A DNA stretch of 64,000 nt from positions 1,362,501 to 1,426,500 of the forward strand of contig NZ_CP039451.1 in the NCBI RefSeq assembly GCF_004843725.1. Reading direction: 5' to 3'. Of the stretch, positions 2,658 through 64,000 are shown one piece after another (position 1 is the stretch's first letter; every line of letters begins with the position of its first letter). The stretch comes from Psychroserpens sp. NJDZ02. Lineage in GTDB: Bacteria; Bacteroidota; Bacteroidia; Flavobacteriales; Flavobacteriaceae. The notes below the pieces were generated by a model. That model saw nothing but the letters and a program-made list of their open reading frames with translations. It had not been told where the DNA came from and made no database searches. Both the position numbers and the translations under genes were made by a program.

Positions 2658-2671
2658 AAACACTATTCAAT

Positions 2672-3019: not shown

Positions 3020-3024
3020 GTAAT

Positions 3025-37243: not shown

Positions 37244-37322
37244 AATCAACGCATTAATTAATAACCCTTTAAGACAAAACATGAAATATTTTCATAATTT
37301 TGACATAATTAAAAACATAACA

Positions 37323-38018
37323 ATGAAAAACATAATTTATCTAGCTATTTTCAGCTTTAGTTTTGGAGCTACTGCCCAATCCAATGATGCGTTGGCTAAA
37401 CATTACGAAGCCTATTACAAACAAATGAAGACTCAAGGAGATGTTCAAGGTATTATTAACGCAATAACACATCTTAATGTTTTAAAGCCATCTGAAGCTA
37501 GAAAAGATACTCTAGCTTATGTTTATTTAAACGAAGGAAAGTTTAATCAAGCGTTAAATACTATTGGTATAGAACAAAAATCTACAGATTCTGACATGGC
37601 TCTGGAAGTAAAAGCTGTATCATTAAAATCTTTAGGAAATATAAAAGCGTCTCTGCCATTTTTTGAAACCATTTATACTAAGTATCAAAATCCGCAAGTC
37701 GCTTATGAATTAGCTGAAATAAACTTAAATCTAAACAACCTTACTGATGCTAAAAAATACATAGATTTAGGTTTTGTTGATGTAAAAGACAGCCAAGGTA
37801 AAAGTTTTTACGAAACCCAGCAACCTTACAAGGTTCCCTTAAAATCTGCTTTTTACTATCTAGATGCCTTAGTAAAATTTAATGAAAACAAAGACACTAA
37901 TAAACCTGCAGCTTTATTACTTCTAGACAAAGCTCTAGCTATTGAGCCAGGTTTTAATATGGCTCAACTTGCTAAAAATGCTTTATCACCTCAAGAGGCA
38001 ACAAAGACAGAAAACTAA
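37323..38018 (+). CDS. Exported TPR-like protein
   Basis: From the ATG at 37323 the product has 231 residues with a signal peptide MKNIIYLAIFSFSFGATAQS. A longer frame from 37281 adds 14 non-signal residues (MKYFHNFDIIKNIT) that would spoil the signal, so the inner ATG is preferred. The mature protein has helix pairs as in TPRs (ALAKHYEAYYKQMKTQGDVQ, LAYVYLNEGKFNQALNTIG, VAYELAEINLNLNNLTDAKK, LLLLDKALAIEPGFNMAQLA). It may serve as a protein-binding factor in the periplasm. A strong terminator follows. Confidence 0.75.
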   Translation: MKNIIYLAIFSFSFGATAQSNDALAKHYEAYYKQMKTQGDVQGIINAITHLNVLKPSEARKDTLAYVYLNEGKFNQALNTIGIEQKSTDSDMALEVKAVSLKSLGNIKASLPFFETIYTKYQNPQVAYELAEINLNLNNLTDAKKYIDLGFVDVKDSQGKSFYETQQPYKVPLKSAFYYLDALVKFNENKDTNKPAALLLLDKALAIEPGFNMAQLAKNALSPQEATKTEN

Positions 38019-38034
38019 TTTAATACTAACTCAT

Positions 38035-38068
38035 AAAAAAAGCCTTCCAATTGGAAGGCTTTTTTTAT
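38035..38068. terminator. Bidirectional terminator
   Basis: AGCCTTCCAATTGGAAGGCT (38041-38060) is a perfect palindrome with an A-run before and a T-run after it. It can end both the plus-strand TPR-like gene and the minus-strand cassette of adhesin, PorP and PorE-like genes. Confidence 0.88.
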
Positions 38069-38083
38069 TACTAAATAGGTGAT

Positions 38084-40030
38084 TTATTTTACTATAATAA
38101 ATTCACTTCTTCTGTTTAATTGATGTTCAGACTCACTACAAGGCGTACCGTCACTACATCTATTTCGCAGTTGTGTTTCTCCATACCCTTGACCTGTTAG
38201 TCTTGCGCTATTAATACCTCCAACATTAACTAAATAGTCTATTGTAGATTTAGCTCTTCTATTAGATAAATCAAGATTATACGCACTTGTATTACGACTA
38301 TCCGTATGCGATCTCACATCAATATTAACATTAGAATACACATTTAAGAAATCAATGATTTTACGTAATTCTACTTCTGCGTCTTGTCTTATATAAGCTT
38401 TATCTAAATCAAAGTAAATAATATTTATACCTAATAAAGGTGCAATATCCGTTCCTAATGGCGCAGGAAGCACATCTTGTTTTTTCATAAATAAAGTACG
38501 CTCTACAACACCTGTCCTATTTGGTGTATTAAACACTTTTTCGGCTGGGCTATACGCTTCTTTAGTAGACCTAATAGAATAGGTTTGAGAACAATCTAAA
38601 GTAAAATTAAAACTACCATCTATTCTAGACGTCTTTTCATCTATAACTTTATTGTTTTCATTCAACAGATACACCACAGCTTTGGCTATTGGTTGGTCAT
38701 CTTTAACATCTAATACAATTCCATTGATAGATTGTTCGCACTTGGTAATTAATGGTTTTATACTTTTAAAACTATAAATATCATCATCTCCAACACCTCC
38801 AGTTCTATTTGAAGCAAAATACCCAATCCCAGTTATATTATTAATAATAAAAGTAAAATCATCATCTGGTCCGTTTACAGGTCTTCCTAAATTAAAAACA
38901 TCGCCTACTTTATTATCGTTTAAATCTGAAACAAAAATATCCAATCCTCCTAAACCGACATGCCCATCTGATGCAAAATACAGTTTATTATCTTTACTAA
39001 TAAATGGAAACGTTTCTCTTCCTTCAGTATTAATTTTATCTCCAAGATTTTTAATTTCTCCAAATACACCATTGTTTACTTCCACTTTATATAAATCTGA
39101 TAATCCTTTTGTTCCAGGCATATCACTAGCAAAATACAATGTTTTTTCGTCAGGACTCAGGGCTGGATGTGCTACAGAATATTGATTGCTATTAAATGGC
39201 AACTCTTCCACATCCCAATGTGTACTCCCTTTATCAATTCTTTTTCCTCTGTATAATTTTAGTCTATTTGTACCCTCTTCATCCTGTTTATAATCTTCAT
39301 CAGTATAATTGTTTCTTGTAAAATATAGCGTTAAACCATCTTTAGTAAAAACAGCAGTAGACTCATGATAAATAGAATTTATATCACTACTAAACTTAGA
39401 ACTACTAGGTTTTGAAACCTCTGTATTATTTAATTTATATAGGTCTAAAAAAGGTTGTTCATTCCAATCATGAACTCTTTTAGAAAACCCTCTAGTATCT
39501 CTATTAGAAGCATAAATCAAAGCGCCTTGATAAAACGACGGAGCAAAATCTGATAATTTAGAATTAAAGTTTACGTTTATAAGTTCAAAACGTCCCGATT
39601 GGAGTTCTATTTCTTCTAAATAATTTCTTTCATTTACAAATAAATTAGCACGGTAATCCTCTCCTTTAGTTTCATGGAATTTCTCCATTACGACATCTGA
39701 AGCAAAATATTTTTCATCACTCTTTAAAGACAGCGCATAACGATAGATATATTCTGGTTCTATATTATCCGATGAATCAAATAATTGACCATACCATTTA
39801 GCTGCATTTTTATAATCCGCATTAAAATAATAAGAATCCCCTAAGTTTTTTAATAGTTGATCGGAATTAACGCCATCGCTAGCTGCTTTTAAGTAAGACT
39901 CTCTTGCCTCTATATAGGCTAATTTATCAAACTCTTTATTTCCTTCTGTGACTTCTTTTTTCTCTTGCGCCAATAAAACATTTATTGACAGAAAAAATAA
40001 GGTTATATATATTGTAATTTTATTTCTCAT
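38084..40030 (-). CDS. PorE-like OmpA-family protein, cassette 1
   Basis: The 648-residue exported protein has a signal peptide (1-22), a TPR-like helical region (about 25-110), a beta-propeller of PD40/WD40 type (about 160-430) with SPDEKTLYFASDMPGTKGLS and DNKLYFASDGHVGLGGLDIF, and a CarboxypepD regulatory-like domain (about 437-510). The C-terminal OmpA peptidoglycan-binding domain (about 525-648) has YFDLDKAYIRQDAEVELRK and DVRSHTDSRNTSAYNLDLSN. This order matches PorE of the type IX secretion system, which links outer-membrane parts to peptidoglycan. It comes 18 bases after PorP/SprF and ends the operon. The paralogue at 52877-54820 is very similar. Confidence 0.9.
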   Translation of the reverse strand: MRNKITIYITLFFLSINVLLAQEKKEVTEGNKEFDKLAYIEARESYLKAASDGVNSDQLLKNLGDSYYFNADYKNAAKWYGQLFDSSDNIEPEYIYRYALSLKSDEKYFASDVVMEKFHETKGEDYRANLFVNERNYLEEIELQSGRFELINVNFNSKLSDFAPSFYQGALIYASNRDTRGFSKRVHDWNEQPFLDLYKLNNTEVSKPSSSKFSSDINSIYHESTAVFTKDGLTLYFTRNNYTDEDYKQDEEGTNRLKLYRGKRIDKGSTHWDVEELPFNSNQYSVAHPALSPDEKTLYFASDMPGTKGLSDLYKVEVNNGVFGEIKNLGDKINTEGRETFPFISKDNKLYFASDGHVGLGGLDIFVSDLNDNKVGDVFNLGRPVNGPDDDFTFIINNITGIGYFASNRTGGVGDDDIYSFKSIKPLITKCEQSINGIVLDVKDDQPIAKAVVYLLNENNKVIDEKTSRIDGSFNFTLDCSQTYSIRSTKEAYSPAEKVFNTPNRTGVVERTLFMKKQDVLPAPLGTDIAPLLGINIIYFDLDKAYIRQDAEVELRKIIDFLNVYSNVNIDVRSHTDSRNTSAYNLDLSNRRAKSTIDYLVNVGGINSARLTGQGYGETQLRNRCSDGTPCSESEHQLNRRSEFIIVK

Positions 40031-40048
40031 AGTAATTGTTTTTGGGGG

Positions 40049-40993
40049 TTAGAAGAATCTTGGAGAAATCATACGGTTATTTCTTTTGAATAATTCAAAT
40101 CTTAAAAATACTTCATAAGATCCGTCATTAAATTGCTGCAATTCTGTCGTTTCTCTATCATACGCAATACCAAGCATAATCTGATCTGAAACTTGAAAAC
40201 CAGCCATAGCACTCATTGCGGCATCCCACCTATAAGCAAGACCTAATGTTAACTTTTCTTTTAATAAAACACTAGCAGATAAATCTACTTGTAATGGTGC
40301 TCCATCAACAACTTTAAATAGTGTAGATGGTTTAAATTTGATATCCGGAGTTAAGTCAAATATTTTTCCTGCCATAACATAAAAATTAACCTTTTCCTTT
40401 GCTGTTGCGAAAGAGTTGTTATTTGCTGCGTTTTCATCAAAATGTTCTGTCTCTAAAATGTTGGGAGCACTTAATCCTAAATAAAACGTGTCTGTATAAT
40501 AGTAAAGCCCTAATCCAAATTGTGGCGAAAATTTATTATCCACATTTATTTCCGTATCAGAATCACCCTGGTTGAAAGCCCCTGTATTTAACTTATTGGT
40601 ATCTATATTTAAAAAATGACCACCAGCCTTAAGTCCTAATGCTAACTTAGCATCATTTGCCAAGTCTAAGGTGTAACTAAAAGATAAGTCAATATAGGTT
40701 TCACTAGTAATAAATATTTCATCTTGTGTAATGTTAAGACCTACTCCAACCTTGTCCCCTACAGGCGAGTGTAATGACGCTGTAAAGGTATCTGGTGCAC
40801 CGTCTAAACCAACCCATTGTGTTCTATACAAGCCTACAAAACTTAATACATCTCTAGAACCTGCATACGCAGGATTAACACTAAGCGTGTTATACATGTA
40901 TTGAGTGTATTGCGCATCTTGTTGCGCATAACTTTGGTTAGAATAAAACCCTAGTCCTATTAAGGCTAAAACAATTATGTAATAATTTTTCAT
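40049..40993 (-). CDS. PorP/SprF-family type IX secretion membrane protein, cassette 1
   Basis: The 314-residue product has a signal peptide with SYAQQDAQYTQYMYNTLSVN just after it. PAYAGSRDVLSFVGLYRTQW is the family signature for PorP/SprF, outer-membrane beta-barrels of the type IX secretion system. The end is EVFLRFELFKRNNRMISPRFF, another hallmark. In Flavobacterium johnsoniae SprF is needed to export the giant adhesin SprB, and the gene order here (adhesin, then PorP/SprF) suggests a dedicated export or anchoring role. It is preceded by a conserved hairpin (41010-41035) and is nearly the same as the copy at 54839-55783. Confidence 0.93.
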   Translation of the reverse strand: MKNYYIIVLALIGLGFYSNQSYAQQDAQYTQYMYNTLSVNPAYAGSRDVLSFVGLYRTQWVGLDGAPDTFTASLHSPVGDKVGVGLNITQDEIFITSETYIDLSFSYTLDLANDAKLALGLKAGGHFLNIDTNKLNTGAFNQGDSDTEINVDNKFSPQFGLGLYYYTDTFYLGLSAPNILETEHFDENAANNNSFATAKEKVNFYVMAGKIFDLTPDIKFKPSTLFKVVDGAPLQVDLSASVLLKEKLTLGLAYRWDAAMSAMAGFQVSDQIMLGIAYDRETTELQQFNDGSYEVFLRFELFKRNNRMISPRFF

Positions 40994-41009
40994 TTTGTAT
41001 ATGTTTAAA

Positions 41010-41035
41010 CCAGTAACTCAGAAATGAGTTACTGG
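41010..41035. repeat. Hairpin between adhesin 1 and porP 1
   Basis: CCAGTAACTC pairs exactly with GAGTTACTGG around a 6-base loop. In the direction of transcription (minus) only a short TTT follows, so termination would be partial. An equivalent hairpin is at 55803-55826 in cassette 2, indicating selection. It may set adhesin/PorP stoichiometry or protect a processed mRNA end (inference). Confidence 0.6.
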
Positions 41036-41046
41036 GATTTGATAAT

Positions 41047-44000
41047 TTATTTTCTATTAATATATAATGGTCCAGCTTTTTGCTCAGATTTACCATCATT
41101 GTTGAAATAAGTTAATACATAATAGTACGTTCCTATAGGAAGTTTTTCATCCCTTTTAACAGTAACTCGACCTTCAGAAACACCTCTAAAGAATTTACCA
41201 CCTATACCATAACCATCTACATTGTATACTTCAACACCCCAACGGTTATAAATCTGTAGTGTATTATTTGGATAGTTTTCAATACCACTAATTACAAATA
41301 CATCATTATTTCCATCTCCATTAGGCGTCATAATATCAAATATATTTAAACCGTCTTCAGCTTCAGGATTACCATTATTACACTCTGCATAATCAGGAAT
41401 TCCATTATCATTATTATCAGCTAATTCTTCTCCATTTGTAAAGCCATCTCCATCACCATCACAATCGCAGTCTGCATTTAACCAAGCATCACTAACTATT
41501 GTAATATCCTGACTTTCGAAGTCAAAATCACAAGCATCATTTGGATCAGTCTCATCAATAACTTCAGTTCCATTATCAACACCATCACCATCACAATCGG
41601 CAAGGTTCCATCCTTCTGAAGTAGCAACTGTTTGACTAGTTACAAGGAAATCACAACTATCAAAAGGGTTTGTATCATCTAATATTTCATCTTCATTTGT
41701 AACACCATCGCCATCACAATCTCCATTATTAAAGAATGAATCTGTTACAAGTGTTTGACTGGTTATTACTAGACTACAATTATCTAATGGGTCAGTAGCA
41801 TCTAACACTTCATCTTCATTTGCAACACCATCGCCATCACAATCTCCATTATTCCATTCGCCTGAAGGTGCAACTGTCTGACTTATTAGCACAAAGTCAC
41901 ACGGATCATTAGCATTGGTCCCATCTTCAAATTCATTTCCATTAGTCACTCCATCACCATCACAATCTAAATCATCAAAATTCATTGTTATAATAGTAAT
42001 ATCTACACTATTGACATCAAAATCACAAGGATTTTGCGGATCTGTACCGTCTAATAATTCTTGTCCATTAATAACACCATCACCATCACAATCAGTACCG
42101 TTCCATTCCACTGACGGTGTAATTGTTTGACTTGCTGTTAAGAAATCACAAAGATCATTTGGATTTGTACCATCAGCGATCTCTGTTAAATTAGTTACTC
42201 CATCACCATCACAATCAGCGATTATAAAGTCCCCTGATGTTTCCAAGGTCTGGTTTGCTACAATAAAATCACATGGATCTAATGGGTCAGTACCATCTAT
42301 AACTTCTGTACCATTTATAACACCATCTCCATCACAATCTCCAGCGTTCCAAACATCTGCAGGTGTAGTATCAATACTAGTGTAGTCTAAATCACATTGG
42401 TCTAGAGGATCTGTTCCATCCATAATTTCTGTTCCATTTGAAACACCATCTCCATCACAATCTAATGCTTCCCAAATAGGCGTTTGCGGCATTGATATGC
42501 TAGCTAACATAAACTCACATGGATTTTGTGGATCTGTTCCATCAATAACTTCATCTCCATTTGTTACTCCGTCACCATCACAGTCTAAACTATTCCAAAC
42601 GGTTGTTGGTGTAGTATCTTGACTTGTCACATTAAAATCACATGGATCTAAAGGATTTGTCCCATCTATTATTTCTGTACCATTAGTAACTCCATCGCCA
42701 TCACAATCTGAAGTAGTAAAATCTTCTGAAACTGTTAATGTTTGACTTGACACTACAAAATCACATGGATCTTGAGGATCGGTTCCATCAATTAATTCTG
42801 TACCATTTGATACACCATCACCATCGCAATCTAATGCTTCCCACATAGCAGTAACAACTGTTACATCTTGTGACATTAACAGATAACTACATGGATCTTG
42901 TGGATTAGTGCCATCATTAATTTCTGTACCATTACTAACACCATCTCCATCACAATCGGCTGTTAACCATTCAAAAGAAACTATATTAATATTTTGTCCT
43001 GAAGCATCATAATCACAAGGATCGATAGGGTCAGTACCTGTAAGTATTTCATTACCATTACTAACACCATCTCCATCACAATCGGCGTTTAAGTACACAT
43101 CACTTTGAACAACAGTTACACTAGATGCTATGAAATCACAAGAGTCATTTGGATCAGTACCATCTGCAATCTCATCACTATTAATAACTCCGTCACTATC
43201 ACAATCTGCTGCTAAATAAGCGCCACTCTGAGTAAGAGTTACATCTTCAACATTAAAATCACATGGATCATTTGGATCTGTTGCATTTGGACCAGCTGTA
43301 CCACTCGTATCAGGATCTACCTCTGTTCCGTTTGAAACGCCATCTCCATCACAATCTGCCATGTACCATGCACTAGTTGTATCTGTTAAGTCAACACTTG
43401 TTAGATTTCCACCGATACAAGGATCATTTAGATCTGTCCCATTTGCAATCTCGTTACAATCAGTTACACCATCTCCATCCGTATCTGTTAATGCGAATTC
43501 CGTATCAACAGGATCACAAGCATTAGTCGGGTCACTTGTTCCAGAAGGAACTTCTGAAGTTAATGGATTATCCAACCCTGTTGTTTCCTCACAATCTGTT
43601 AAACCATCGCCATCACTATCTACTAATGATGATCCTTCTATTGGGTCACAAGCATCATTTGGATCAGTTGTTCCAACAGGTATTAATGCTGTATTTGGAT
43701 TATCAACTCCTGTTGTTTCTTCACAATCTGTTAAGCCATCGCCATCACTATCCACTACACTTGATGTTGAGATAGGATCACAAGCATCAAATGGATTTGA
43801 TGTTGGTCCATCGGAATCTACTGGTGGTACTAATAACGTGTTTGGATTATCAATTCCTGTTGTTTCCTCACAGTCCGTTAAGCCATCACCATCACTATCT
43901 AATAATGACGAACCATCTATTGGGTCACAGGCATTATTTGGGTCTGTTGTCCCCACTGGTATTAATGGTGTGTTTGGATTATCAACTCCTGTTGTTTCTT

Positions 44001-47000
44001 CACAATCCGTTAAGCCATCGCCATCACTATCTAATAATGACGAACCATCTATTGGGTCACAGGCATTATTTGGATCTGTTGTTCCAACTGGTATTAATGG
44101 TGTGTTTGGATTATCGACTCCTGTTGTTTCTTCACAATCCGTTAAGCCATCACCATCACTATCCACTAATGACGAACCGTCTATTGGGTCACAGGCATTA
44201 TTTGGATCAGTAGTTCCTACTGGTATTAATACTGTGTTTGGATTATCAACTCCTGTTGTTTCTTCACAATCCGTTAAGCCATCACCATCACTATCTAATA
44301 ATGACGAACCTGATATTGGGTCACAAGCATTATTTGGATCTGTTGTCCCAACTGGTATTAATGGTGTATTTGGATTATCGTTTCCTGTTGTTTCTTCACA
44401 ATCTGTTAAGCCATCGCCATCACTATCTACTAAACTTGATGTTGAGATAGGGTCACAAGCATCTAGCGGATCACTTGTTACGCCTCCTGGACTAAGTGGT
44501 GTTCCTGGATTATCTAATCCTGTTGTTTCTTCACAATCCGTAAGACCATCACCATCACTATCTACTAGTGCAGAGGTTTCAATTGGGTCACACGCATCAT
44601 TTGGATCACTTATTCCTGTTGGAATTGTTGATGTATTTGGATTATCTTCTCCTGTTGTTTCCTCACAATCTGTTAAACCATCGCCATCACTATCTACTAA
44701 TGATGATCCTTCTATTGGATCACAAGCATCATTTGGATCAGTTGTTCCAACTGGTATTAATGCTGTATTTGGATTATCAACTCCTGTTGTTTCTTCACAA
44801 TCTGTTAAGCCATCGCCATCACTATCTACTACACTTGATGTTGAGATAGGATCACAAGCATCAAATGGATTTGATGTTGGTCCATCGGAATCTACTGGTG
44901 GTACTAATAACGTGTTTGGATTATCAATTCCTGTTGTTTCTTCACAGTCTGTTAAACCATCACCATCACTATCTAATAATGACGAACCATCTATTGGGTC
45001 ACAGGCATTATTTGGGTCTGTTATCCCCACTGGTATTAATAGTGTGTTTGGGTTATCAACCCCTGTAGTTTCTTCACAATCCGTTAAGCCATCGCCATCA
45101 CTATCTAATAATGACGAACCATCTATTGGGTCACAGGCATTATTTGGATCTGTTGTTCCAACTGGTATTAATGGTGTGTTTGGATTATCGACTCCTGTCG
45201 TTTCTTCACAATCCGTTAAGCCATCACCATCACTATCCACTAATGACGAACCGTCTATTGGGTCACAGGCATTATTTGGATCAGTAGTTCCTACTGGTAT
45301 TAATACTGTGTTTGGATTATCAACTCCTGTTGTTTCTTCACAATCCGTTAAGCCATCACCATCACTATCTAATAATGACGAACCTGATATTGGGTCACAA
45401 GCATTATTTGGGTCTGTTGTCCCAACTGGTATTAATGGTGTGTTTGGATTATCGTTTCCTGTTGTTTCTTCACAATCTGTTAAGCCATCGCCATCACTAT
45501 CTACTAAACTTGATGTTGAGATAGGGTCACAAGCATCTAGTGGATCACTTGTTACGCCTCCTGGACTAAGTGGTGTTCCTGGATTATCTAATCCTGTTGT
45601 TTCTTCACAATCCGTAAGACCATCACCATCACTATCTACTAGTGCAGAGGTTTCAATTGGGTCACACGCATCATTTGGATCACTTATTCCTGTTGGAATT
45701 GTTGATGTATTTGGATTATCTTCTCCTGTTGTTTCCTCACAATCTGTTAAACCATCGCCATCACTATCTACTAATGATGATCCTTCTATTGGATCACAAG
45801 CATCATTTGGATCAGTTGTTCCAACTGGTATTAATGCTGTATTTGGATTATCAACTCCTGTTGTTTCTTCACAATCTGTTAAGCCATCGCCATCACTATC
45901 TACTACACTTGATGTTGAGATAGGATCACAAGCATCAAATGGATTTGATGTTGGTCCATCGGAATCTACTGGTGGTACTAATAACGTGTTTGGATTATCA
46001 ATTCCTGTTGTTTCTTCACAGTCTGTTAAACCATCACCATCACTATCTAATAATGACGAACCATCTATTGGGTCACAGGCATTATTTGGGTCTGTTATCC
46101 CCACTGGTATTAATAGTGTGTTTGGGTTATCAACCCCTGTAGTTTCTTCACAATCCGTTAAGCCATCGCCATCACTATCTAATAATGACGAACCATCTAT
46201 TGGGTCACAGGCATTATTTGGATCTGTTGTTCCAACTGGTATTAATGGTGTGTTTGGATTATCGACTCCTGTTGTTTCTTCACAATCCGTTAAGCCATCA
46301 CCATCACTATCCACTAATGACGAACCGTCTATTGGGTCACAGGCATTATTTGGATCAGTAGTTCCTACTGGTATTAATACTGTGTTTGGATTATCAACTC
46401 CTGTTGTTTCTTCACAATCCGTTAAGCCATCACCATCACTATCTAATAATGACGAACCTGATATTGGGTCACAAGCATTATTTGGATCTGTTGTCCCAAC
46501 TGGTATTAATGGTGTATTTGGATTATCGTTTCCTGTTGTTTCTTCACAATCTGTTAAGCCATCGCCATCACTATCTACTAAACTTGATGTTGAGATAGGG
46601 TCACAAGCATCTAGCGGATCACTTGTTACGCCTCCTGGACTAAGTGGTGTTCCTGGATTATCTAATCCTGTTGTTTCTTCACAATCCGTAAGACCATCAC
46701 CATCACTATCTACTAGTGCAGAGGTTTCAATTGGGTCACACGCATCATTTGGATCACTTATTCCTGTTGGAATTGTTGATGTATTTGGATTATCTTCTCC
46801 TGTTGTTTCCTCACAATCTGTTAAACCATCGCCATCACTATCTACTAATGATGATCCTTCTATTGGATCACAAGCATCATTTGGATCAGTTGTTCCAACT
46901 GGTATTAATGCTGTATTTGGATTATCAACTCCTGTTGTTTCTTCACAATCTGTTAAGCCATCGCCATCACTATCTACTACACTTGATGTTGAGATAGGAT

Positions 47001-52605: not shown

Positions 52606-52823
52606 AAGCGATAACTAAAATAAAATACGATTTGTTTAACTTTTTATAGATTTTGGCATAAAAAGTGTTATTCGATGCAATAATCTTAAAAAATAAAAGA
52701 GTAAAGTCTTATTTAGCCTAACCATTCGACGAAACACTCTGTTTCTCAGACAAAGAGCGTTTGATTTGTTGTCCAAAACGCAAAAACAACACTGCAACTA
52801 GAATACAATGCCTTACAAACAAA

Positions 52824-52848
52824 AAAGAGCAGCCTACGGCTGCTCTTT
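52824..52848 (-). terminator. Terminator of cassette 2
   Basis: AAAGAGCAGCC pairs with GGCTGCTCTTT (11 bp) around a 3-base loop. On the minus strand it is followed by TTT and a T-rich tail. It lies after the cassette 2 PorE-like gene and before the adhesin 1 start, so the two cassettes are separate transcripts. Confidence 0.88.
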
Positions 52849-52876
52849 AAACTTTGCAAAAAGAATATTACTACAT

Positions 52877-54820: not shown

Positions 54821-54838
54821 GTTAATTAGTTTTTGGAA

Positions 54839-55783
54839 TTAGAAGAATCTTGGAGAGATCATACGGTTACTTCTTTTAAACAATTCAAATCTTAAAAATA
54901 TTTCAAAAGACCCATCATTATATTGTTTTAATTCTGTAGTCTCTCTATCATAAGCAACACCTAACATCAATTGATCAGAAATTTGAAAACCAGCCATAGC
55001 ACTCATAGCTGCACTCCATCGATAAGCTAATCCTAGAGTCAGTTTCTCTTTTATTAGAAAATTGGCAGATAAATCTACTTGAAAAGGCGCGCCATCCACG
55101 AATTTAAATAAAGTTGAAGGCTTAAATTTCAGGTCATCATTAATATCAAATGTTTTACCAGCCATTACATAAAAATTAACCTTTTCTTTAGCTGTTGCAA
55201 AAGAATCATTATTTGCAGCATTTTCATCAAAATGCTCTGTCTCTAGAATATTTGGAGCACTTAAACCTAAGTAAAATTTATCGGTGTAATAATAAAGACC
55301 TAAACCAAATTGAGGTGAAAACTTGTTATCAATGTTAATTTCAGTATTAGCATCACCTGGATTAAAAGCACCTGTGTTTAACTTATTAGTATCAATATTT
55401 AATAAGTGAGCACCCGCTTTAATTCCTAAAGCCAATTTGGCATCATTATCTAAATCAAGCGTATAACTAAAAGATAGGTCTATGTAAGTTTCACTTGTAA
55501 TAAATATATCATCCTGAGTAATATTAAGTCCTAATCCAACTTTTTCTCCAACGGGAGAATGCAATGATGCCGTAAACGTATCTGGCGCACCATCCAAGCC
55601 TACCCACTGCGTCCTATATAAACCAATAAAACTTAAGACATCTCTAGATCCTGCATAAGCGGGGTTAACACTTAGCGTGTTATACATGTACTGAGTGTAT
55701 TGAGCATCTTGCTGCGCATAACTTTGGTTAGAATAAAATCCTAATCCCATTAAGGCTAAAATAACTATGCAATAATTTTTCAT
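54839..55783 (-). CDS. PorP/SprF-family type IX secretion membrane protein, cassette 2
   Basis: The 314-residue product has exactly the same length as its cassette 1 paralogue and shares PAYAGSRDVLSFIGLYRTQW and the end LRFELFKRSNRMISPRFF. Differences such as FDINDDLKFKPSTLF versus FDLTPDIKFKPSTLF lie mostly in external loops. It precedes the PorE-like gene by 18 bases and follows the adhesin 2 gene by 55, with the conserved hairpin in between. It probably forms part of an adhesin-specific T9SS exit. Confidence 0.92.
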   Translation of the reverse strand: MKNYCIVILALMGLGFYSNQSYAQQDAQYTQYMYNTLSVNPAYAGSRDVLSFIGLYRTQWVGLDGAPDTFTASLHSPVGEKVGLGLNITQDDIFITSETYIDLSFSYTLDLDNDAKLALGIKAGAHLLNIDTNKLNTGAFNPGDANTEINIDNKFSPQFGLGLYYYTDKFYLGLSAPNILETEHFDENAANNDSFATAKEKVNFYVMAGKTFDINDDLKFKPSTLFKFVDGAPFQVDLSANFLIKEKLTLGLAYRWSAAMSAMAGFQISDQLMLGVAYDRETTELKQYNDGSFEIFLRFELFKRSNRMISPRFF

Positions 55784-55802
55784 GTTTTTTATAAGTTTAA
55801 AA

Positions 55803-55826
55803 CCAGTAACTCTTTTGAATTACTGG
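55803..55826. repeat. Hairpin between adhesin 2 and porP 2
   Basis: CCAGTAACTC and GAATTACTGG pair with one mismatch (C.A) and a TTTT loop, matching in position and most bases the hairpin at 41010-41035. The downstream sequence GGTTTTAAAC is shared as well. Confidence 0.55.
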
Positions 55827-55837
55827 TATTTGATAAT

Positions 55838-58800
55838 TTATTTTCTATTAATATATAATGGACCCGCTTTCTGTACAGACTTACCATCACTAGTAATATA
55901 AGTCAACACATAATAATAAGTACCGACAGGTAGTTTATCATCTTTTTTAACTGTAACTCTACCTTCAGAAAAACCTCTAAAGAAATTATTACCTTGACCA
56001 TACCCATCTACATCATAAACTTTAACTCCCCAACGGTTGTAAATTTTCAAAGTGTTTTCTGGGTATTGTTGTATACCACTAATAACAAACACATCATTAT
56101 TTCCATCTCCATCAGGTGTCATAATATCAAAAACTACTAAACCATCTGATGCATCAGCATCTCCATTATCAGCTTCTTCATAATCAGGAACCCCATTATT
56201 ATCATTATCTGAGATTTCATCACCGTTTAAAGTAGAATCTCCATCACAATCTAAAAGCAACCAATCTGCACTAACACCTTCAACTGTTTGCGTCTCGTAA
56301 TCGATTGTTTGACTTGTAAACTCATAATCACAAGGATCTAAAAGATCTGTTCCATCGATACTCTCAATTTCGTTAGAAACGCCATCTCCATCACAATCTG
56401 AATTATTAAATGCATCCGAACTTGTAACCGTTTGGCTAGACACCAAGAAACTACAAGGATCTGCTGGATCTGTACCGTCAGCAATTTCTTGACCGTTAGT
56501 AACACCATCTCCATCACAATCTAAATCTGAAAAGTTATTACTGATTGGTTCTGTCTGACTAGTATATTCAAAGTCACAACCATCTAGAGGGTCCGTACCG
56601 TCATTTAACTCCGTTCCATTTGTAACACCATCTCCATCACAATCTTCATCATACCATTCTGTACTAGGCGTTACATTTTGACTTGTTAAATTTAATTCAC
56701 ATAAATCGTTAGGGTCAGTTCCATCCTCCATTTCTTGACCATTAGTTACACCGTCACCATCACAATCTAAATCATCATAATTCATCGTGATAATTGCGAT
56801 GTTTTGACTATCTGGATCAAAATCACATGGATTTTGCGGATCAGTTCCATCTAACAATTCCTGTCCATTTACTACTCCATCACCATCACAATCAATTGCA
56901 CCCCATTCTTCTGAAGTTGTTACTGTTTGACTAATTACTAAGAAGTCACAAGGATCCATAAAATCTGTTCCGTCAGAAACTTCTTGACCGTTAGTTACGC
57001 CATCACCATCACAATCGAGAGTAGAAAAATCAAGATCTATAGGCAACGTCACACTACTTATTAAGAAATCACAAGGATTATTAGGGTCTGTACCATCAAG
57101 CGCTTCTTGACCATCTATAACACCATCACCATCACTATCATTATCTAGTGGATCTGTTGTATTACCATTTGGATCTGCAGGTGTTGTTGGATCATCTATT
57201 CCCGTAAGTTCCTCTCCGTTATTTAATCCGTCCATATCACAATCAAGATCATTCCATGCGGTAGCAACAGCCACTGTCTGGCTTGACACCTCAAATGCGC
57301 AAGGATCATTTGGATCTGTCATATCTCCAGCTTCATCTCCATCGGTTACACCATCTCCATCCGTATCAGGATTTTGTGGATCTGTTGTATTACCGTTTGG
57401 ATCATTTGGTGTTGATGGATCATCTATTCCTGTAGCCTCCTCATTATTAGTAAGACCATCCATATCACAATCTGCAGTGTCATAAGCCGCATCTGGCGTT
57501 TCCGTCTGATTTGCGACAATTAAACTACAATTATCATTAGGATCTGTACCATCAAGTGCTTCTTGACCATCTGTAACACCATCACCATCACTATCATTAT
57601 CTAGTGGATCTGTTGTATTACCATTTGGATCTGCAGGTGTTGTTGGATCATCTATTCCTGTAAGTTCCTCTCCGTTATTTAATCCATCCATATCACAATC
57701 AAGATCATTCCATGCGGTAGCAACAGCCACTGTCTGGCTTGACACCTCAAATGCGCAAGGATCATTTGGATCTGTCATATCTCCAGCTTCATCTCCATCG
57801 GTTACACCATCGCCATCCGTATCAGGATTTTGTGGATCTGTTGTATTACCGTTTGGATCATTTGGTGTTGATGGATCATCTATTCCTGTAGCCTCCTCAT
57901 TATTAGTAAGACCATCCATATCACAATCTGCAGTGTCATAAGCTGTATCTGGCGTTTCCGTCTGATTTGCGACAATTAAACTACAATGATCATTAGGATC
58001 TGTACCATCAAGTGCTTCTTGACCATCTGTAACACCATCACCATCACTATCATTATCTAGTGGATCTGTTGTATTACCATTTGGATCTGCAGGTGTTGTT
58101 GGATCATCTATCCCTGTAAGTTCCTCTCCGTTATTTAATCCGTCCATATCACAATCAAGATCATTCCATGCCATTGTAGCTATTACCGTCTGGCTCGCAA
58201 TCTCAAGAGCACAAGGATCATTTGGATCTGTCATATCTCCAGCCTCATCTCCATCGGTTACACCATCGCCATCCGTATCAGGATTTTGTGGATCTGTTGT
58301 ATTACCGTTTGGATCATTTGGTGTTGATGGATCATCTATTCCTGTAGTCTCCTCAATATTAGTAAGACCATCCATATCACAATCTGCAGTGTCATAAGCC
58401 GTATCTGGCGTTTCCGTCTGATTTGCGACAATTAAACTACAATTATCATTAGGATCTGTACCATCAAGTGCTTCTTGACCATCTGTAACACCATCACCAT
58501 CACTATCATTATCTAGTGGATCTGTTGTATTACCATTTGGATCTGCAGGTGTTGTTGGATCATCTATTCCAGTAAGTTCCTCTCCGTTATTTAATCCGTC
58601 CATATCACAATCAAGATCATTCCATGCCATTGTAGCTGTTACCGTCTGGCTCGCAATCTCAAGAGCACAAGGATCATTTGGATCTGTCATATCTCCAGCT
58701 TCATCTCCATCGGTTACACCATCGCCATCCGTATCAGGATTTTGTGGGTCTGTTGTATTACCGTTTGGATCATTTGGTGTTGACGGATCATCTATTCCTG

Positions 58801-61800
58801 TAGCTTCCTCACTATTACTAAGACCATCCATATCACAATCAAGACTATTCCATTCTCCTGTAACAATAGTCAAATCCTGATCTATATCATTATAAGAACA
58901 AGGGTCATTAGGGTTACTACCACCATTTACTTCATCCTCATTTGAAACACCATCACCATCACAATCTCCAAGTCCCTGTCCATTACATTCGTCAAAAGAA
59001 ACAACGACTTCTGCTGGTTCGCTTGTATTTCCATCATTATCCATTACAGTATAAGAGATAACTGCTGGATCTTCTACAGACAATCCTGTACAGGTCGCAT
59101 CTGGTATACCTGCACCAGTACAAGGCGTAAAAGTAATTGCTCCACTAACTGGATCAACACTCCAAACCCCAACTCCTGGATCAACTAAGTCATCTCCAGG
59201 ATTGGTTGTACCTACAATCTGTACCGTTGCTGGATCTACAACATCGCCATCAACATCATTCCCTAGCACATCAACAATTACTGGAACTCCAGTATCATTA
59301 CCTGCACTTATATCTGCAGTTGCAACAGGGACGTAATCTATAGTTACTGTTGCTGCATTTGATGGATTACCATCATTATCATCTATCGTATAACTAGCTG
59401 CGCCTGTTGGATCATCATTAAAACCAGCCAATGGTGCAAAACTAATCTCACCATTTACAGGATTTACTTCCCAAACTCCTTCTCCAGGCACCGTATAACC
59501 TATAATATCTCCAGCTGCATCGGTCTGTACCATTGTAGCTCCTGCTGGAACTACTAAGCTCACACTAGTTACATCCAATGTACCATCAGGATCTGCATCT
59601 ACTCCATTACCGTTATCGGCAGTAGGATCTATACTTACCGTAGCACCAGGTGTATTGGCTAAACTAATATCATCTTGAGCAACTGGTGGCTCTGCATCAT
59701 ACATCACAGATACTGTCGCTGCATTTGATACATTACCATCATTATCATTTATTGTATAACTAATATCTTGTGGATCTTGAGTAGATACTCCAACACAACT
59801 AGCATCAGGAACTCCTGCAGCACTACAAGGTGTAAATGTAATTGCTCCAGTAACTGGATCAACACTCCAAACCCCTACTCCTGGCTCCACTAAATCATCA
59901 CCAGGATTTGCTGTACCTACAATTTGAACACTAGTCAAATCTAATGTCCCGTCAGGATCCATATCATTCCCAGCAACAGCAATCAATACTGGATCTCCAG
60001 TCGTATTATTATTACTAGAATCATCCATTGCAATAGGCGATTCTGGATCGAAACTAACACTAACACTTACAGCGTCTGTAATATTACCTTCATCATCAGA
60101 AACCACGTACTCAATATCAGTAGGATTAGCTGTAAATACTACTGGACAATCAGGTAAAGAAACTACTGCACAAGGACTAAATGTAATTGCTCCACTAACT
60201 GGATCAACACTCCAAGTCCCCTCTCCTGTAACAACTAAGTCATCTCCAGGACTGGTTGTACCTACAATCTGTACCGTTGTTGGATCTACAACATCGCCAT
60301 CAACATCATTCCCTAGCACATCAACAATTACTGGAACTCCTGTGTCATTACCTGCACTTATATCTGCAGTTGCAACAGGTACGTAATCTATAGTTACTGT
60401 TGCTGCATTTGATGGATTACCATCATTATCATCTATCGTATAACTAGCTGCGTCTGTTGGATCATCATTAAAACCAGCCAATGGCGCAAAACTAATCTCA
60501 CCATTTACAGGATTTACTTCCCAAACTCCTTCGCCAGGTACCGTATAACCTATAATATCTCCAACTGCATCAGTCTGTACCATTGTAGCTCCTGCTGGAA
60601 CTACTAAACTCACACTTGTTACATCCAATGTACCATCAGGATCTGCATCTACTCCATTACCGTTATCGGCAGTAGGATCTATACTTACCGTAGCACCTGG
60701 TGTATTAGCTAAACTAATATCATCTTGAGCAACTGGTGGCTCTGCATCATACATCACAGATACTGTCGCTGCATTTGATACATTACCATCATTATCATTT
60801 ATTGTATAACTAATATCTTGTGGATCTTGAGTAGATACTCCAACACAACTAGCATCAGGAACTCCTGCGGCACTACAAGGTGTAAATGTAATTACTCCAC
60901 TAACTGGATCAACACTCCAAACCCCTACTCCTGGCTCCACTAAATCATCACCAGGATTTGCTGTACCTACAATTTGAACACTAGTCAAATCTAACGTCCC
61001 ATCAGGATCCATATCATTCCCAGCAACAGCAATCAACACTGGATCTCCAGTCGTATTATTATTACTAGAATCATCCATTGCAATAGGCGATTCTGGATCG
61101 AAACTAACACTAACACTTACAGCGTCTGTAATATTACCTTCATCATCAGAAACCACATATTCAATATCAGTTGGATTAGCTGTAAATACTACTGGACAAT
61201 CAGGTAAAGAAACTACTGTACAAGGACTAAATGTAATTGCTCCACTAACTGGATCAACACTCCAAGTCCCCTCTCCTGTAACAACTAAGTCATCTCCAGG
61301 ATTGGTTGTACCTACAATCTGTACCGTTGCTGGATCTACAACATCGCCATCAACATCATTCCCTAGCACATCAACAATTACTGGAACTCCAGTATCATTA
61401 CCTGCACTTATATCTGCAGTTGCAACAGGGACGTAATCTATAGTTACTGTTGCTGCATTTGATGGATTACCATCATTATCATCTATCGTATAACTAGCTG
61501 CGCCTGTTGGATCATCATTAAAACCAGCCAATGGTGCAAAACTAATCTCACCATTTACAGGATTTACTTCCCAAACTCCTTCTCCAGGCACCGTATAACC
61601 TATAATATCTCCAGCTGCATCGGTCTGTACCATTGTAGCTCCTGCTGGAACTACTAAGCTCACACTAGTTACATCCAATGTACCATCAGGATCTGCATCT
61701 ACTCCATTACCGTTATCGGCAGTAGGATCTATACTTACCGTAGCACCAGGTGTATTGGCTAAACTAATATCATCTTGAGCAACTGGTGGCTCTGCATCAT

Positions 61801-64000
61801 ACATCACAGATACTGTCGCTGCATTTGATACATTACCATCATTATCATTTATTGTATAACTAATATCTTGTGGATCTTGAGTAGATACTCCAACACAACT
61901 AGCATCAGGAACTCCTGCAGCACTACAAGGTGTAAATGTAATTGCTCCAGTAACTGGATCAACACTCCAAACCCCTACTCCTGGCTCCACTAAATCATCA
62001 CCAGGATTTGCTGTACCTACAATTTGAACACTAGTCAAATCTAATGTCCCGTCAGGATCCATATCATTCCCAGCAACAGCAATCAATACTGGATCTCCAG
62101 TCGTATTATTATTACTAGAATCATCCATTGCAATAGGCGATTCTGGATCGAAACTAACACTAACACTTACAGCGTCTGTAATATTACCTTCATCATCAGA
62201 AACCACGTACTCAATATCAGTAGGATTAGCTGTAAATACTACTGGACAATCAGGTAAAGAAACTACTGCACAAGGACTAAATGTAATTGCTCCACTAACT
62301 GGATCAACACTCCAAGTCCCCTCTCCTGTAACAACTAAGTCATCTCCAGGACTGGTTGTACCTACAATCTGTACCGTTGTTGGATCTACAACATCGCCAT
62401 CAACATCATTCCCTAGCACATCAACAATTACTGGAACCCCTGTGTCATTACCTGCACTTATATCTGCAGTTGCAACAGGTACGTAATCTATAGTTACTGT
62501 TGCTGCATTTGATGGATTACCATCATTATCATCTATCGTATAACTAGCTGCGTCTGTTGGATCATCATTAAAACCAGCCAATGGCGCAAAACTAATCTCA
62601 CCATTTACAGGATTTACTTCCCAAACTCCTTCGCCAGGTACCGTATAACCTATAATATCTCCAACTGCATCAGTCTGTACCATTGTAGCTCCTGCTGGAA
62701 CTACTAAACTCACACTTGTTACATCCAATGTACCATCAGGATCTGCATCTACTCCATTACCGTTATCGGCAGTAGGATCTATACTTACCGTAGCACCTGG
62801 TGTATTAGCTAAACTAATATCATCTTGAGCAACTGGTGGCTCTGCATCATACATCACAGATACTGTCGCTGCATTTGATACATTACCATCATTATCATTT
62901 ATTGTATAACTAATATCTTGTGGATCTTGAGTAGATACTCCAACACAACTAGCATCAGGAACTCCTGCGGCACTACAAGGTGTAAATGTAATTACTCCAC
63001 TAACTGGATCAACACTCCAAACCCCTACTCCTGGCTCTACTAAATCATCACCAGGATTTGCTGTACCTACAATTTGAACACTAGTCAAATCTAACGTCCC
63101 ATCAGGATCCATATCATTCCCAGCAACAGCAATCAACACTGGATCTCCAGTCGTATTATTATTACTAGAATCATCCATTGCAATAGGCGATTCTGGATCG
63201 AAACTAACACTAACACTTACAGCGTCTGTAATATTACCTTCATCATCAGAAACCACGTACTCAATATCAGTTGGATTTGCAGTAAATACTACTGGACAAT
63301 CAGGTAAAGAAACTACTGTACAAGGACTAAATGTAATTGCTCCACTAACTGGATCAACACTCCAAGTCCCCTCTCCTGTAACAACTAAGTCATCTCCAGG
63401 ATTGGTTGTACCTACAATCTGTACCGTTGTTGGATCTACAATATCCCCATCAACATCATTCCCTAGCACATCAACAATTACTGGAACTCCTGTGTCATTA
63501 CCCGCACTTATATCTGCAGTTGCAACAGGTACGTAATCTATAGTTACTGTTGCTGCATTTGATGGATTACCATCATTATCATCTATCGTATAACTAGCTG
63601 CGTTTGTAGGATCATCATTAAAACCAGCCAATGGCGCAAAACTAATCTCACCATTTACAGGATTTACTTCCCAAACTCCTTCGCCAGGCACTGTATAACC
63701 TATAATATCTCCAGCTGCATCGGTCTGGACCATTGTAGCTCCTGCTGGAACTACTAAACTCACACTTGTTACATCCAATGTACCATCAGGATCTGCATCT
63801 ACTCCATTACCGTTATCGGCAGTAGGATCTATACTTACCGTAGCACCTGGTGTATTAGCTAAACTAATATCATCTTGAGCAACTGGTGGCTCTGCATCAT
63901 ACATCACAGATACTGTCGCTGCATTTGATACATTACCATCATTATCATTTATTGTATAACTAATGTCTTGTGGATCTTGAGTAGATACTCCAACACAACT
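55838..64000 (-). CDS. Giant type IX-secreted adhesin 2, C-terminal 2720 residues (N-terminus outside window)
   Basis: The frame is open to the right edge with no start, so the N-terminus and signal are missing here. Visible parts, in N-to-C order: tandem 350-residue blocks made of three cadherin/VCBS-like beta domains (starting VMYDAEPPVAQDDISLANTP, IDYVPVATADISAGNDTGVP and VSFDPESPIAMDDSSNNNTT). Then come 152-residue blocks of TSP3-like units (DCDMDGLTNIEETTGIDDPS, DTDGDGVTDGDEAGDMTDPN), followed by DCDGDGVTNGQE units of about 40 residues. The type B sorting domain ends the protein: DIMTPDGDGNNDVFVISGIQ, IYNRWGVKVYDV, GTYYYVLTYIT, GPLYINRK. Its end is nearly the same as adhesin 1, but the mid-region modules are different in kind. 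Confidence 0.92.
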   Translation of the reverse strand, partial: SCVGVSTQDPQDISYTINDNDGNVSNAATVSVMYDAEPPVAQDDISLANTPGATVSIDPTADNGNGVDADPDGTLDVTSVSLVVPAGATMVQTDAAGDIIGYTVPGEGVWEVNPVNGEISFAPLAGFNDDPTNAASYTIDDNDGNPSNAATVTIDYVPVATADISAGNDTGVPVIVDVLGNDVDGDIVDPTTVQIVGTTNPGDDLVVTGEGTWSVDPVSGAITFSPCTVVSLPDCPVVFTANPTDIEYVVSDDEGNITDAVSVSVSFDPESPIAMDDSSNNNTTGDPVLIAVAGNDMDPDGTLDLTSVQIVGTANPGDDLVEPGVGVWSVDPVSGVITFTPCSAAGVPDASCVGVSTQDPQDISYTINDNDGNVSNAATVSVMYDAEPPVAQDDISLANTPGATVSIDPTADNGNGVDADPDGTLDVTSVSLVVPAGATMVQTDAVGDIIGYTVPGEGVWEVNPVNGEISFAPLAGFNDDPTDAASYTIDDNDGNPSNAATVTIDYVPVATADISAGNDTGVPVIVDVLGNDVDGDVVDPTTVQIVGTTSPGDDLVVTGEGTWSVDPVSGAITFSPCAVVSLPDCPVVFTANPTDIEYVVSDDEGNITDAVSVSVSFDPESPIAMDDSSNNNTTGDPVLIAVAGNDMDPDGTLDLTSVQIVGTANPGDDLVEPGVGVWSVDPVTGAITFTPCSAAGVPDASCVGVSTQDPQDISYTINDNDGNVSNAATVSVMYDAEPPVAQDDISLANTPGATVSIDPTADNGNGVDADPDGTLDVTSVSLVVPAGATMVQTDAAGDIIGYTVPGEGVWEVNPVNGEISFAPLAGFNDDPTGAASYTIDDNDGNPSNAATVTIDYVPVATADISAGNDTGVPVIVDVLGNDVDGDVVDPATVQIVGTTNPGDDLVVTGEGTWSVDPVSGAITFSPCTVVSLPDCPVVFTANPTDIEYVVSDDEGNITDAVSVSVSFDPESPIAMDDSSNNNTTGDPVLIAVAGNDMDPDGTLDLTSVQIVGTANPGDDLVEPGVGVWSVDPVSGVITFTPCSAAGVPDASCVGVSTQDPQDISYTINDNDGNVSNAATVSVMYDAEPPVAQDDISLANTPGATVSIDPTADNGNGVDADPDGTLDVTSVSLVVPAGATMVQTDAVGDIIGYTVPGEGVWEVNPVNGEISFAPLAGFNDDPTDAASYTIDDNDGNPSNAATVTIDYVPVATADISAGNDTGVPVIVDVLGNDVDGDVVDPTTVQIVGTTSPGDDLVVTGEGTWSVDPVSGAITFSPCAVVSLPDCPVVFTANPTDIEYVVSDDEGNITDAVSVSVSFDPESPIAMDDSSNNNTTGDPVLIAVAGNDMDPDGTLDLTSVQIVGTANPGDDLVEPGVGVWSVDPVTGAITFTPCSAAGVPDASCVGVSTQDPQDISYTINDNDGNVSNAATVSVMYDAEPPVAQDDISLANTPGATVSIDPTADNGNGVDADPDGTLDVTSVSLVVPAGATMVQTDAAGDIIGYTVPGEGVWEVNPVNGEISFAPLAGFNDDPTGAASYTIDDNDGNPSNAATVTIDYVPVATADISAGNDTGVPVIVDVLGNDVDGDVVDPATVQIVGTTNPGDDLVDPGVGVWSVDPVSGAITFTPCTGAGIPDATCTGLSVEDPAVISYTVMDNDGNTSEPAEVVVSFDECNGQGLGDCDGDGVSNEDEVNGGSNPNDPCSYNDIDQDLTIVTGEWNSLDCDMDGLSNSEEATGIDDPSTPNDPNGNTTDPQNPDTDGDGVTDGDEAGDMTDPNDPCALEIASQTVTATMAWNDLDCDMDGLNNGEELTGIDDPTTPADPNGNTTDPLDNDSDGDGVTDGQEALDGTDPNDNCSLIVANQTETPDTAYDTADCDMDGLTNIEETTGIDDPSTPNDPNGNTTDPQNPDTDGDGVTDGDEAGDMTDPNDPCALEIASQTVIATMAWNDLDCDMDGLNNGEELTGIDDPTTPADPNGNTTDPLDNDSDGDGVTDGQEALDGTDPNDHCSLIVANQTETPDTAYDTADCDMDGLTNNEEATGIDDPSTPNDPNGNTTDPQNPDTDGDGVTDGDEAGDMTDPNDPCAFEVSSQTVAVATAWNDLDCDMDGLNNGEELTGIDDPTTPADPNGNTTDPLDNDSDGDGVTDGQEALDGTDPNDNCSLIVANQTETPDAAYDTADCDMDGLTNNEEATGIDDPSTPNDPNGNTTDPQNPDTDGDGVTDGDEAGDMTDPNDPCAFEVSSQTVAVATAWNDLDCDMDGLNNGEELTGIDDPTTPADPNGNTTDPLDNDSDGDGVIDGQEALDGTDPNNPCDFLISSVTLPIDLDFSTLDCDGDGVTNGQEVSDGTDFMDPCDFLVISQTVTTSEEWGAIDCDGDGVVNGQELLDGTDPQNPCDFDPDSQNIAIITMNYDDLDCDGDGVTNGQEMEDGTDPNDLCELNLTSQNVTPSTEWYDEDCDGDGVTNGTELNDGTDPLDGCDFEYTSQTEPISNNFSDLDCDGDGVTNGQEIADGTDPADPCSFLVSSQTVTSSDAFNNSDCDGDGVSNEIESIDGTDLLDPCDYEFTSQTIDYETQTVEGVSADWLLLDCDGDSTLNGDEISDNDNNGVPDYEEADNGDADASDGLVVFDIMTPDGDGNNDVFVISGIQQYPENTLKIYNRWGVKVYDVDGYGQGNNFFRGFSEGRVTVKKDDKLPVGTYYYVLTYITSDGKSVQKAGPLYINRK
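57080..58835 (-). repeat. 456-bp tandem repeat in adhesin 2 (TSP3-like units)
   Basis: The sequence AAGGATCATTTGGATCTGTC recurs at 57301, 57757, 58213 and 58669, always 456 bp (152 residues) apart. Each period holds three to four DxDxDG units. Copies 1-2 and 3-4 share variants (CAFEVSSQTV versus CALEIASQTV), suggesting duplication of pairs. Confidence 0.9.
58990..64000 (-). repeat. 1050-bp tandem repeat with alternating A/B copies in adhesin 2
   Basis: The landmark TAGCACC(A/T)GGTGTATT occurs at 59641, 60691, 61741, 62791 and 63841, exactly 1050 bp (350 residues) apart. Copies at 59641 and 61741 share one set of variants (TDAAGD, DPTGAAS) and those at 60691 and 62791 another (TDAVGD, DPTDAAS), so the real unit is a 2100-bp A-B pair. 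The array continues beyond the window. Confidence 0.92.

Follow-up and report, generated by a model that had tools for sequence, protein, structure and literature searches.

Two tandem Type B protein, PorP/SprF and PorE-like cassettes with a conserved chassis and different cargo in Psychroserpens sp. NJDZ02

In Flavobacterium johnsoniae, five PorE-containing Type B operons have been described, and static anchoring of their products to the cell wall has been proposed (PMC12618676); another count for the same organism gives six porP-like genes lying next to porE-like genes (PMC9143113). In the published view, the pore of the type IX secretion system (T9SS), SprA, is common to the substrates, with PorP acting as carrier and anchor instead of as a channel. 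The CxC tail of the SprF carrier is required for gliding and bonds to GldK through a disulfide (PMC12635249). In the excerpts of these papers that are cited here and below, both the triad of Type B protein, PorP/SprF carrier and PorE-like protein and its likely static role (PMC12618676, PMC9143113) are already published. Here we describe two such triads lying side by side in a stretch of 64,000 nucleotides of Psychroserpens sp. NJDZ02, hereafter the window (contig NZ_CP039451.1, C1:1362501-1426500 of the single-contig 4.32-Mb genome, G000).

Both triads are complete and lie in tandem on the minus strand, each running from a giant Type B T9SS protein through a PorP/SprF carrier to a PorE-like protein, the adjacent substrate-carrier-PorE-like order of a static anchor operon (Table 1). 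We refer to the triad of cassette 1 as T1 and to that of cassette 2 as T2. A model that had seen only the letters of the window and its open reading frames (the sequence-only reading) had noticed this three-gene order twice, side by side on one strand, and all six genes are indeed found where it placed them. A single colinear blastn match of 4,289 columns (about 4.3 kb) at 77.6% DNA identity joins the two cassettes, spanning the last 430 or so codons before the adhesin stop, PorP, and the PorE-like gene to its end; homology over that length and at that identity is not chance. Between the copies, protein identity is 80% in the C-terminal domain (CTD, the last 100 amino acids, aa), 88% in PorP and 80% in the PorE-like protein, which bears out the earlier description of the export partners as almost unchanged. 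Colinearity is lost upstream of this segment, where the remaining blastn matches are short or repeat-driven and the best one that is not repeat-like covers 116 bp at 86%. An assembly artefact was considered and ruled out, the copies differing in about 22% of the DNA over the colinear segment in a single-contig genome. The best explanation for the two copies is either duplication of the shared chassis or acquisition of a sister copy.

We put the probability at roughly three in four that each cassette is one transcription unit building a static, wall-anchored giant surface protein on a conserved and probably interchangeable chassis made up of CTD, PorP and PorE-like protein. The Type B protein would cross the shared SprA translocon, while its CTD would be taken by the FadL-like PorP carrier, which would leave with it and stay bound to it as an outer-membrane anchor. 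The PorE-like protein, by way of its OmpA domain, would then hold PorP to peptidoglycan from the periplasmic side. These carrier, complex and anchoring functions are suggested by homologues, and the static behaviour is a prediction. Under the same scheme the N-terminal cargo and the repeat stalk would turn over by recombination and repeat amplification, and the tandem would provide two different surface proteins on interchangeable anchors, not two private exits.

The family assignments of the six genes fit this scheme. Both PorPs score far above the cut-offs of PorP_SprF PF11751 (296 and 305 bits vs 22.3) and TIGR03519 (262 and 274 bits vs 90.55), placing them in the carrier family, and the window PorP is modelled with a FadL-like barrel fold; sequence searches brought up no PorP/SprF relative of solved structure. 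The best species-named protein matches of PorP 1 come from Olleya and Lacinutrix, at up to 86% identity. Both adhesins pass the cut-off of CHU_C (86.8 and 80.8 bits vs 27) and so qualify as Type B, and adhesin 1 also passes that of the TIGR04131 Type B model (36.6 vs 35). In both PorE-like proteins PD40 and OmpA are above the Pfam cut-offs, with CarboxypepD_reg above it in copy 1 only; Pfam lists no TPR family in them, and the structural model predicts eight helices ahead of the propeller, giving the four-part architecture of helical/TPR N-terminus, beta-propeller, carboxypeptidase-regulatory-like part and OmpA. Within each cassette the genes are closely spaced, with gaps of 53 and 54 bp between adhesin and PorP and 18 bp between PorP and the PorE-like gene in either copy. 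The two cassettes themselves look like separate transcription units, not one operon, because terminator-like hairpins stand between them, after PorE-like 1 and ahead of the adhesin 2 gene (the last two of these read by eye).

With export and anchor parts that hardly differ and displayed proteins that do, the kit looks modular, not tailored to each protein. Adhesin 2, whose whole gene encodes 4,782 aa (genome 1418338-1432686) and extends beyond the window, carries five blocks at a 350-residue spacing, four of them 97.5-99.9% identical in DNA, and matches the NCBIfam/Pfam models for the CshA-type fibril repeat, VCBS and Big_9. Compared with adhesin 1 in 120-residue steps, its first ~700 residues reach only 23-33% identity and the 350-residue blocks (about 1800-3700) only 27-31%; shared stretches lie in parts of the middle (39-63%) and in the TSP3 stalk (39-66%). 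It is the large repeat arrays and the ~700 residues at the N-terminus of adhesin 2 that set the two apart. The sequence-only reading had contrasted their repeat modules, and this holds for the units of 44-49 residues against blocks of 350; the TSP3 repeats before the CTD and the DUF11-type modules, however, are common to both.

A wider comparison drew on 32 of 82 triads, those with an adhesin of at least 1,100 aa and a PorE-like protein of at least 400 aa (496 pairs), with residues -1100 to -500 from the adhesin C-terminus taken as cargo. The Spearman correlations among the chassis parts are 0.73 for PorP and PorE-like, 0.68 for PorP and CTD, and 0.64 for PorE-like and CTD, and those with the cargo are 0.22 for PorP, 0.28 for PorE-like and 0.30 for CTD. 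A low cargo correlation alone is no proof, because cargo evolves fast. There are also inversions: loci L128 and L147 are 90% identical in PorP and 92% in the CTD, their cargo score fraction being 0.13, and L128 and L148 are 81% identical in PorP with a cargo fraction of 0.81. Genome G033 holds four cassettes, in two tandem pairs flanking the origin of the record, with PorPs 95.7-100% and PorE-like proteins 99.2-99.7% identical, CTDs only 70-85% identical, and adhesins of 633, 1,946, 1,810 and 1,945 aa whose N-terminal score fractions run from 0.02 to 0.74. Three of its PorPs are identical in protein sequence; of the three adhesins next to them, two match each other at 77% along their length and the third is quite unlike them. 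One carrier sequence thus accompanies clearly different passengers and moderately different CTDs. Together, the 32-triad correlations and the G033 array support modular cargo, as the earlier idea of swappable cargo on conserved partners had it. Such arrays are a natural experiment, in which one chassis serves two passengers here and four in a relative, and if the carriers are interchangeable within arrays, flavobacteria could vary what they display by exchanging cargo genes, with no need to evolve export anew, and the destination of a Type B protein should be predictable from the sequence of its chassis, not of its cargo. In the open-access literature searched, outside which most subscription papers fall, nothing turned up on tandem triads whose cargo had been exchanged.

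The triad is common, and a protein search matched at least 8,000 relatives. In the 80 closest loci (GTDB genomes), a Type B CTD lies upstream of PorP in 76, a PorE-like gene downstream in 74, and both in 72, which refutes the possibility that the triad is not conserved in any related genome. G000 itself has 10 PorP-family genes, 22 CHU_C matches (19 above cut-off) and six full triads. Complete tandem triads recur in two of the 10 other genomes with a full PorP survey (G033 and G019), and partial tandems occur in G001, G008 and G020. A pair of PorPs within 8 kb is seen at one of the 80 loci, L174 (flanks at most 10 kb). In many of loci L107-L186 the contig breaks off within a few kilobases of PorP on its upstream side, probably in the repeats of the adhesin, and draft genomes therefore under-report cargo.

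Several findings weigh against the scheme of a static, wall-anchored protein on a conserved chassis. The chassis is not strictly unitary, as the PorE-like proteins are merely 48-52% identical in 6 of the 21 triad pairs whose PorPs reach at least 80%, and the tandem pair of G019 combines PorPs at 84.5% with PorE-like proteins at 44%. Neither PorE-like protein of the window is PorE sensu stricto: they score 304 and 316 bits with NCBIfam PorE NF052230 (cut-off 600), and their top-scoring model, CHU_0125_OmpA, also stays below its cut-off (391 and 383 vs 620). Nor do they look like lipoproteins, since the first cysteine comes at residue 431 in copy 1 and 430 in copy 2 and a lipobox is thus missing. 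Adhesin 2, though above the Pfam CHU_C cut-off, falls slightly below that of TIGR04131 (30.6 vs 35), and both giant proteins are putative adhesins named for their repeats alone. The AlphaFold model of a PorP-PorE read-through (fused) chain reaches a predicted template modelling score of 0.66 and gives no confident placement of the two parts.

The sequence-only reading went further than modular cargo and proposed that each PorP and PorE-like pair is specific to its own adhesin, giving two insulated export routes, which we consider quite improbable. Cognate pairing of CTD and shuttle is the rule for distant CTDs in F. johnsoniae, where a CTD is exported by the shuttle of another CTD at 68% identity and not at 43% or 26% (PMC12618676, from the excerpts); the window CTDs, however, are 80% identical, above the level sufficient for such cross-handling. 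In favour of such routes, the T1 and T2 lineages are old and co-inherited, the trees of the CTD and of PorP plus PorE-like both pairing T2 with G042 and T1 with G045. Against insulated routes, identical PorPs adjoin different adhesins in G033, and the ratio of nonsynonymous to synonymous substitution rates (dN/dS) in PorP is low, at 0.038, albeit with dS near saturation (0.9-1.7). Mapping the aligned PorPs onto a topology that we assigned from the strands of the CTD-PorP AlphaFold model, a simpler form of a check that the sequence-only reading had called for, gives no excess in the extracellular loops either: the two differ at 37 of 314 positions, and 8 of 68 positions in the predicted extracellular loops equal the overall rate. 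The counts elsewhere are 16/159 in strands, 4/23 in the signal peptide, 0/25 in the N-terminal hatch and 1/14 in the C-tail. Differences are commoner in the predicted periplasmic turns (8/25), where the PorE-like protein could bind, and this leaves room for pairing preferences between PorP and PorE. On balance, dedicated exits are not what these comparisons favour, and either PorP is predicted to handle both CTDs.

It is also highly improbable that the two giant proteins ride the gliding track as SprB does. They share with SprB/SprF the combination of Type B CTD and PorP/SprF carrier, and G000 does have a Type B gene of 4,626 aa with a CxC-tail carrier after it (C1:3733883-3748778). The window PorPs, however, have no cysteine outside the signal peptide and none in either C-tail, and so lack the CxC tail on which SprF depends for gliding and through which it bonds to GldK (PMC12635249), and both cassettes have a PorE-like neighbour, which known mobile substrates lack in the excerpted account (PMC12618676).

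The tails of the carriers were surveyed in 11 genomes with 91 PorP genes, one truncated duplicate (from L045) being dropped and the PorP of L196 counted as PorE-positive after inspection. All 40 PorE-linked PorPs end in PR[FY][FY], compared with 9 of the 51 that lack a PorE-like gene directly downstream; none of the 49 PR[FY][FY]-tailed genes has a cysteine after residue 45, and none of the 16 carriers with CxC near the end has an adjacent PorE-like gene. The last four residues are PRFF in all 80 nearest loci. In the 49 genes the residues preceding the tail are variable and the P and R invariant; since these genes were selected on their last four positions, only this contrast carries information. 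The correlation of tail with PorE was rejected as independent evidence: in a PorP tree built without the last 14 residues, the 49 genes form one clade (SH-aLRT 89, quick method) and the tail is therefore one event, and an independent-pairs test of tail against PorE linkage had four pairs and no power. In a separate observation, 17 of the 91 PorP genes have frames longer than 450 aa, and these make up one side of a branch.

These tails suggest, tentatively and with odds that we would call unfavourable, that the carrier C-terminus acts as a routing label, with cysteine-free PR[FY][FY] directing to the static PorE/peptidoglycan anchor and CxC to the moving GldK track. Retention of PR[FY][FY] in branches without an adjacent PorE-like gene counts against it. 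At L057, L055, L097 and L064, an adhesin-PorP pair with the same kind of neighbours as the triad at G000 C1:521886-538669 (L047) keeps PRFF with no PorE-like gene following. The rule is also weaker outside the Flavobacteriaceae, where a chosen subset of PorP matches (42 PorP rows on 40 stretches, L286-L325, from 8 genomes) has the tail in 8 of 15 PorE-linked carriers and in none of 27 unlinked ones. Seven of the 42 end in a single-cysteine CP-x-F, and another four carry CP-x-F no more than 8 residues from the C-terminus; these 11, 2 of which adjoin a PorE-like gene, may represent a third tail class. No ordering of the tail by the PorE-like protein was seen in the AlphaFold PorP-PorE fusion, a result that is weak either way because the fused chain has no free C-terminus; the mean predicted local distance difference test score (pLDDT) is 68 for PorP 301-310 and 56 for block 311-320 there, and 75 (302-311) and 62 (312-314) in the CTD-PorP model, where the tail is free. 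If the label holds, the CTD would pick the passenger and the tail its destination, exchanging tails would make a static adhesin mobile and vice versa, and tandem arrays would reuse one anchor for different passengers. The pattern makes the question of static versus moving Type B proteins answerable by a simple tail exchange. It was not found in print in the open-access literature searched.

The history of the site fits both an old duplication with later losses and an acquisition of T2. The single-contig genome G045, of the same genus, has one triad between the same flanking genes (a peptidase M13 gene upstream and the genes at window 34943-38018 downstream), with PorP 97% and PorE-like 94% identical to T1; its 5,253-aa adhesin is 79% identical to adhesin 1 over the first ~1,640 residues and has a different large repeat array. 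In the draft G042, the single triad found at the site is T2-type (PorP 92%, PorE-like 89% to T2), on a contig that stops inside the adhesin. G043 and G046 have one triad each, and the remaining five same-genus genomes have no PorP nearer than 56-57% at the threshold used. T1 joins G045 in the trees of PorP plus PorE-like (100/100) and of the last 190 adhesin residues (92/88), and T2 joins G042 with 100/99 in both, several other forks of the adhesin tree being weak; because these trees agree, the chassis parts, including the CTD, were inherited together here. That cassette 2 came from a G042-like relative and was inserted beside cassette 1, instead of going back to an old tandem duplication with later loss in G045 and G042, is possible though doubtful: one type of triad in each relative at the same site and the sister relationship of T2 and G042 speak for it, but the divergence of T2 from G042 matches that of flanking genes (for example 82.6% for the gene at 34943-37243), as vertical descent predicts.

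Table 1. The two cassettes and associated elements, in window coordinates
Feature	Position	Strand	Remarks
PorE-like protein 1	38084..40030	-	648 aa; PD40 beta-propeller, CarboxypepD_reg, OmpA
PorP/SprF-family carrier 1	40049..40993	-	314 aa, C-terminus SPRFF
Adhesin 1	41047..52605	-	3,852 aa, Type B T9SS protein (CHU_C / TIGR04131), DUF11, Big_9, TSP3
Adhesin 1 Type B CTD (last 100 codons)	41050..41349	-	80% identical to adhesin 2 CTD
Adhesin 1 TSP3-like array	43564..47400	-	29 units, spacing 44-49 residues
Duplicated chassis copy 1	38082..42339	-	Last ~430 adhesin codons + PorP + PorE-like; coordinates converted from blastn match
Terminator-like inverted repeat + T run just 3' of PorE-like 1	38034..38066	-	Read by eye
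PorE-like protein 2	52877..54820	-	647 aa, 80% identical to PorE-like 1
PorP/SprF-family carrier 2	54839..55783	-	314 aa, 88% identical to carrier 1, C-terminus SPRFF
Adhesin 2, C-terminal 2,720 aa within window	55838..64000	-	Cut at window edge
Adhesin 2 Type B CTD (last 100 codons)	55841..56140	-	
Adhesin 2 TSP3-like repeats	57080..58853	-	Spacing 76 residues
Duplicated chassis copy 2	52875..57139	-	Coordinates converted from blastn match
Terminator-like hairpin between cassettes, 3' of PorE-like 2	52824..52848	-	11 pairs, T tail; strong

Some further observations concern the surroundings and the rest of the genome. A 1,380-aa open frame at window 43361-47503 (+), antisense to the 44-residue repeat array of adhesin 1, is most likely a by-product of the repeats and not a gene, and the adjacent 766- and 245-aa frames at window 34943-38018 correspond to a single 1,024-aa frame in G045. 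At L051 (G000 C1:1334403-1343418), a 2,694-aa Type B protein and a PorP stand without a PorE-like neighbour or either tail motif; carriers resembling this PorP occur in G020 and G016 and together form a small clade. At G000 C1:3733883-3753217 (L052 3884-18779 and L053 1847-6218), the 4,626-aa Type B protein and the CxC-tail carrier mark what is probably the SprB/SprF locus of the genome, presumably similar to SprB/SprC/SprD; upstream lies a PorP-family protein of 968 aa, extended by a long additional C-terminal part and adjoining a 487-aa Type B protein.

The closest counterparts of the window cassettes, compared here by published description, are Fjoh_3952/Fjoh_3951/Fjoh_3950 and the other F. 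johnsoniae operons, which have the same order of Type B protein, PorP/SprF shuttle and PorE-like protein (PMC12618676, excerpts); the present locus differs from them in its two closely related tandem copies and its very large, repeat-rich cargo. In the PorE-PorP-PG1035 complex of Porphyromonas gingivalis, a PorP-like barrel likewise binds a Type B CTD protein and a PorE-family protein, but the excerpted account has a single PorP, a single Type B protein and a PorE that is an outer-membrane-associated lipoprotein (PMC9143113), whereas the PorE-like proteins of the window lack a lipobox cysteine and fall below the PorE model cut-off. The SprB/SprF module likewise pairs a giant Type B adhesin with a PorP/SprF carrier, yet, as described in the excerpts, it has no PorE-like gene alongside and relies on the SprF CxC-GldK disulfide, in contrast to window PorPs that end in SPRFF (PMC12635249).
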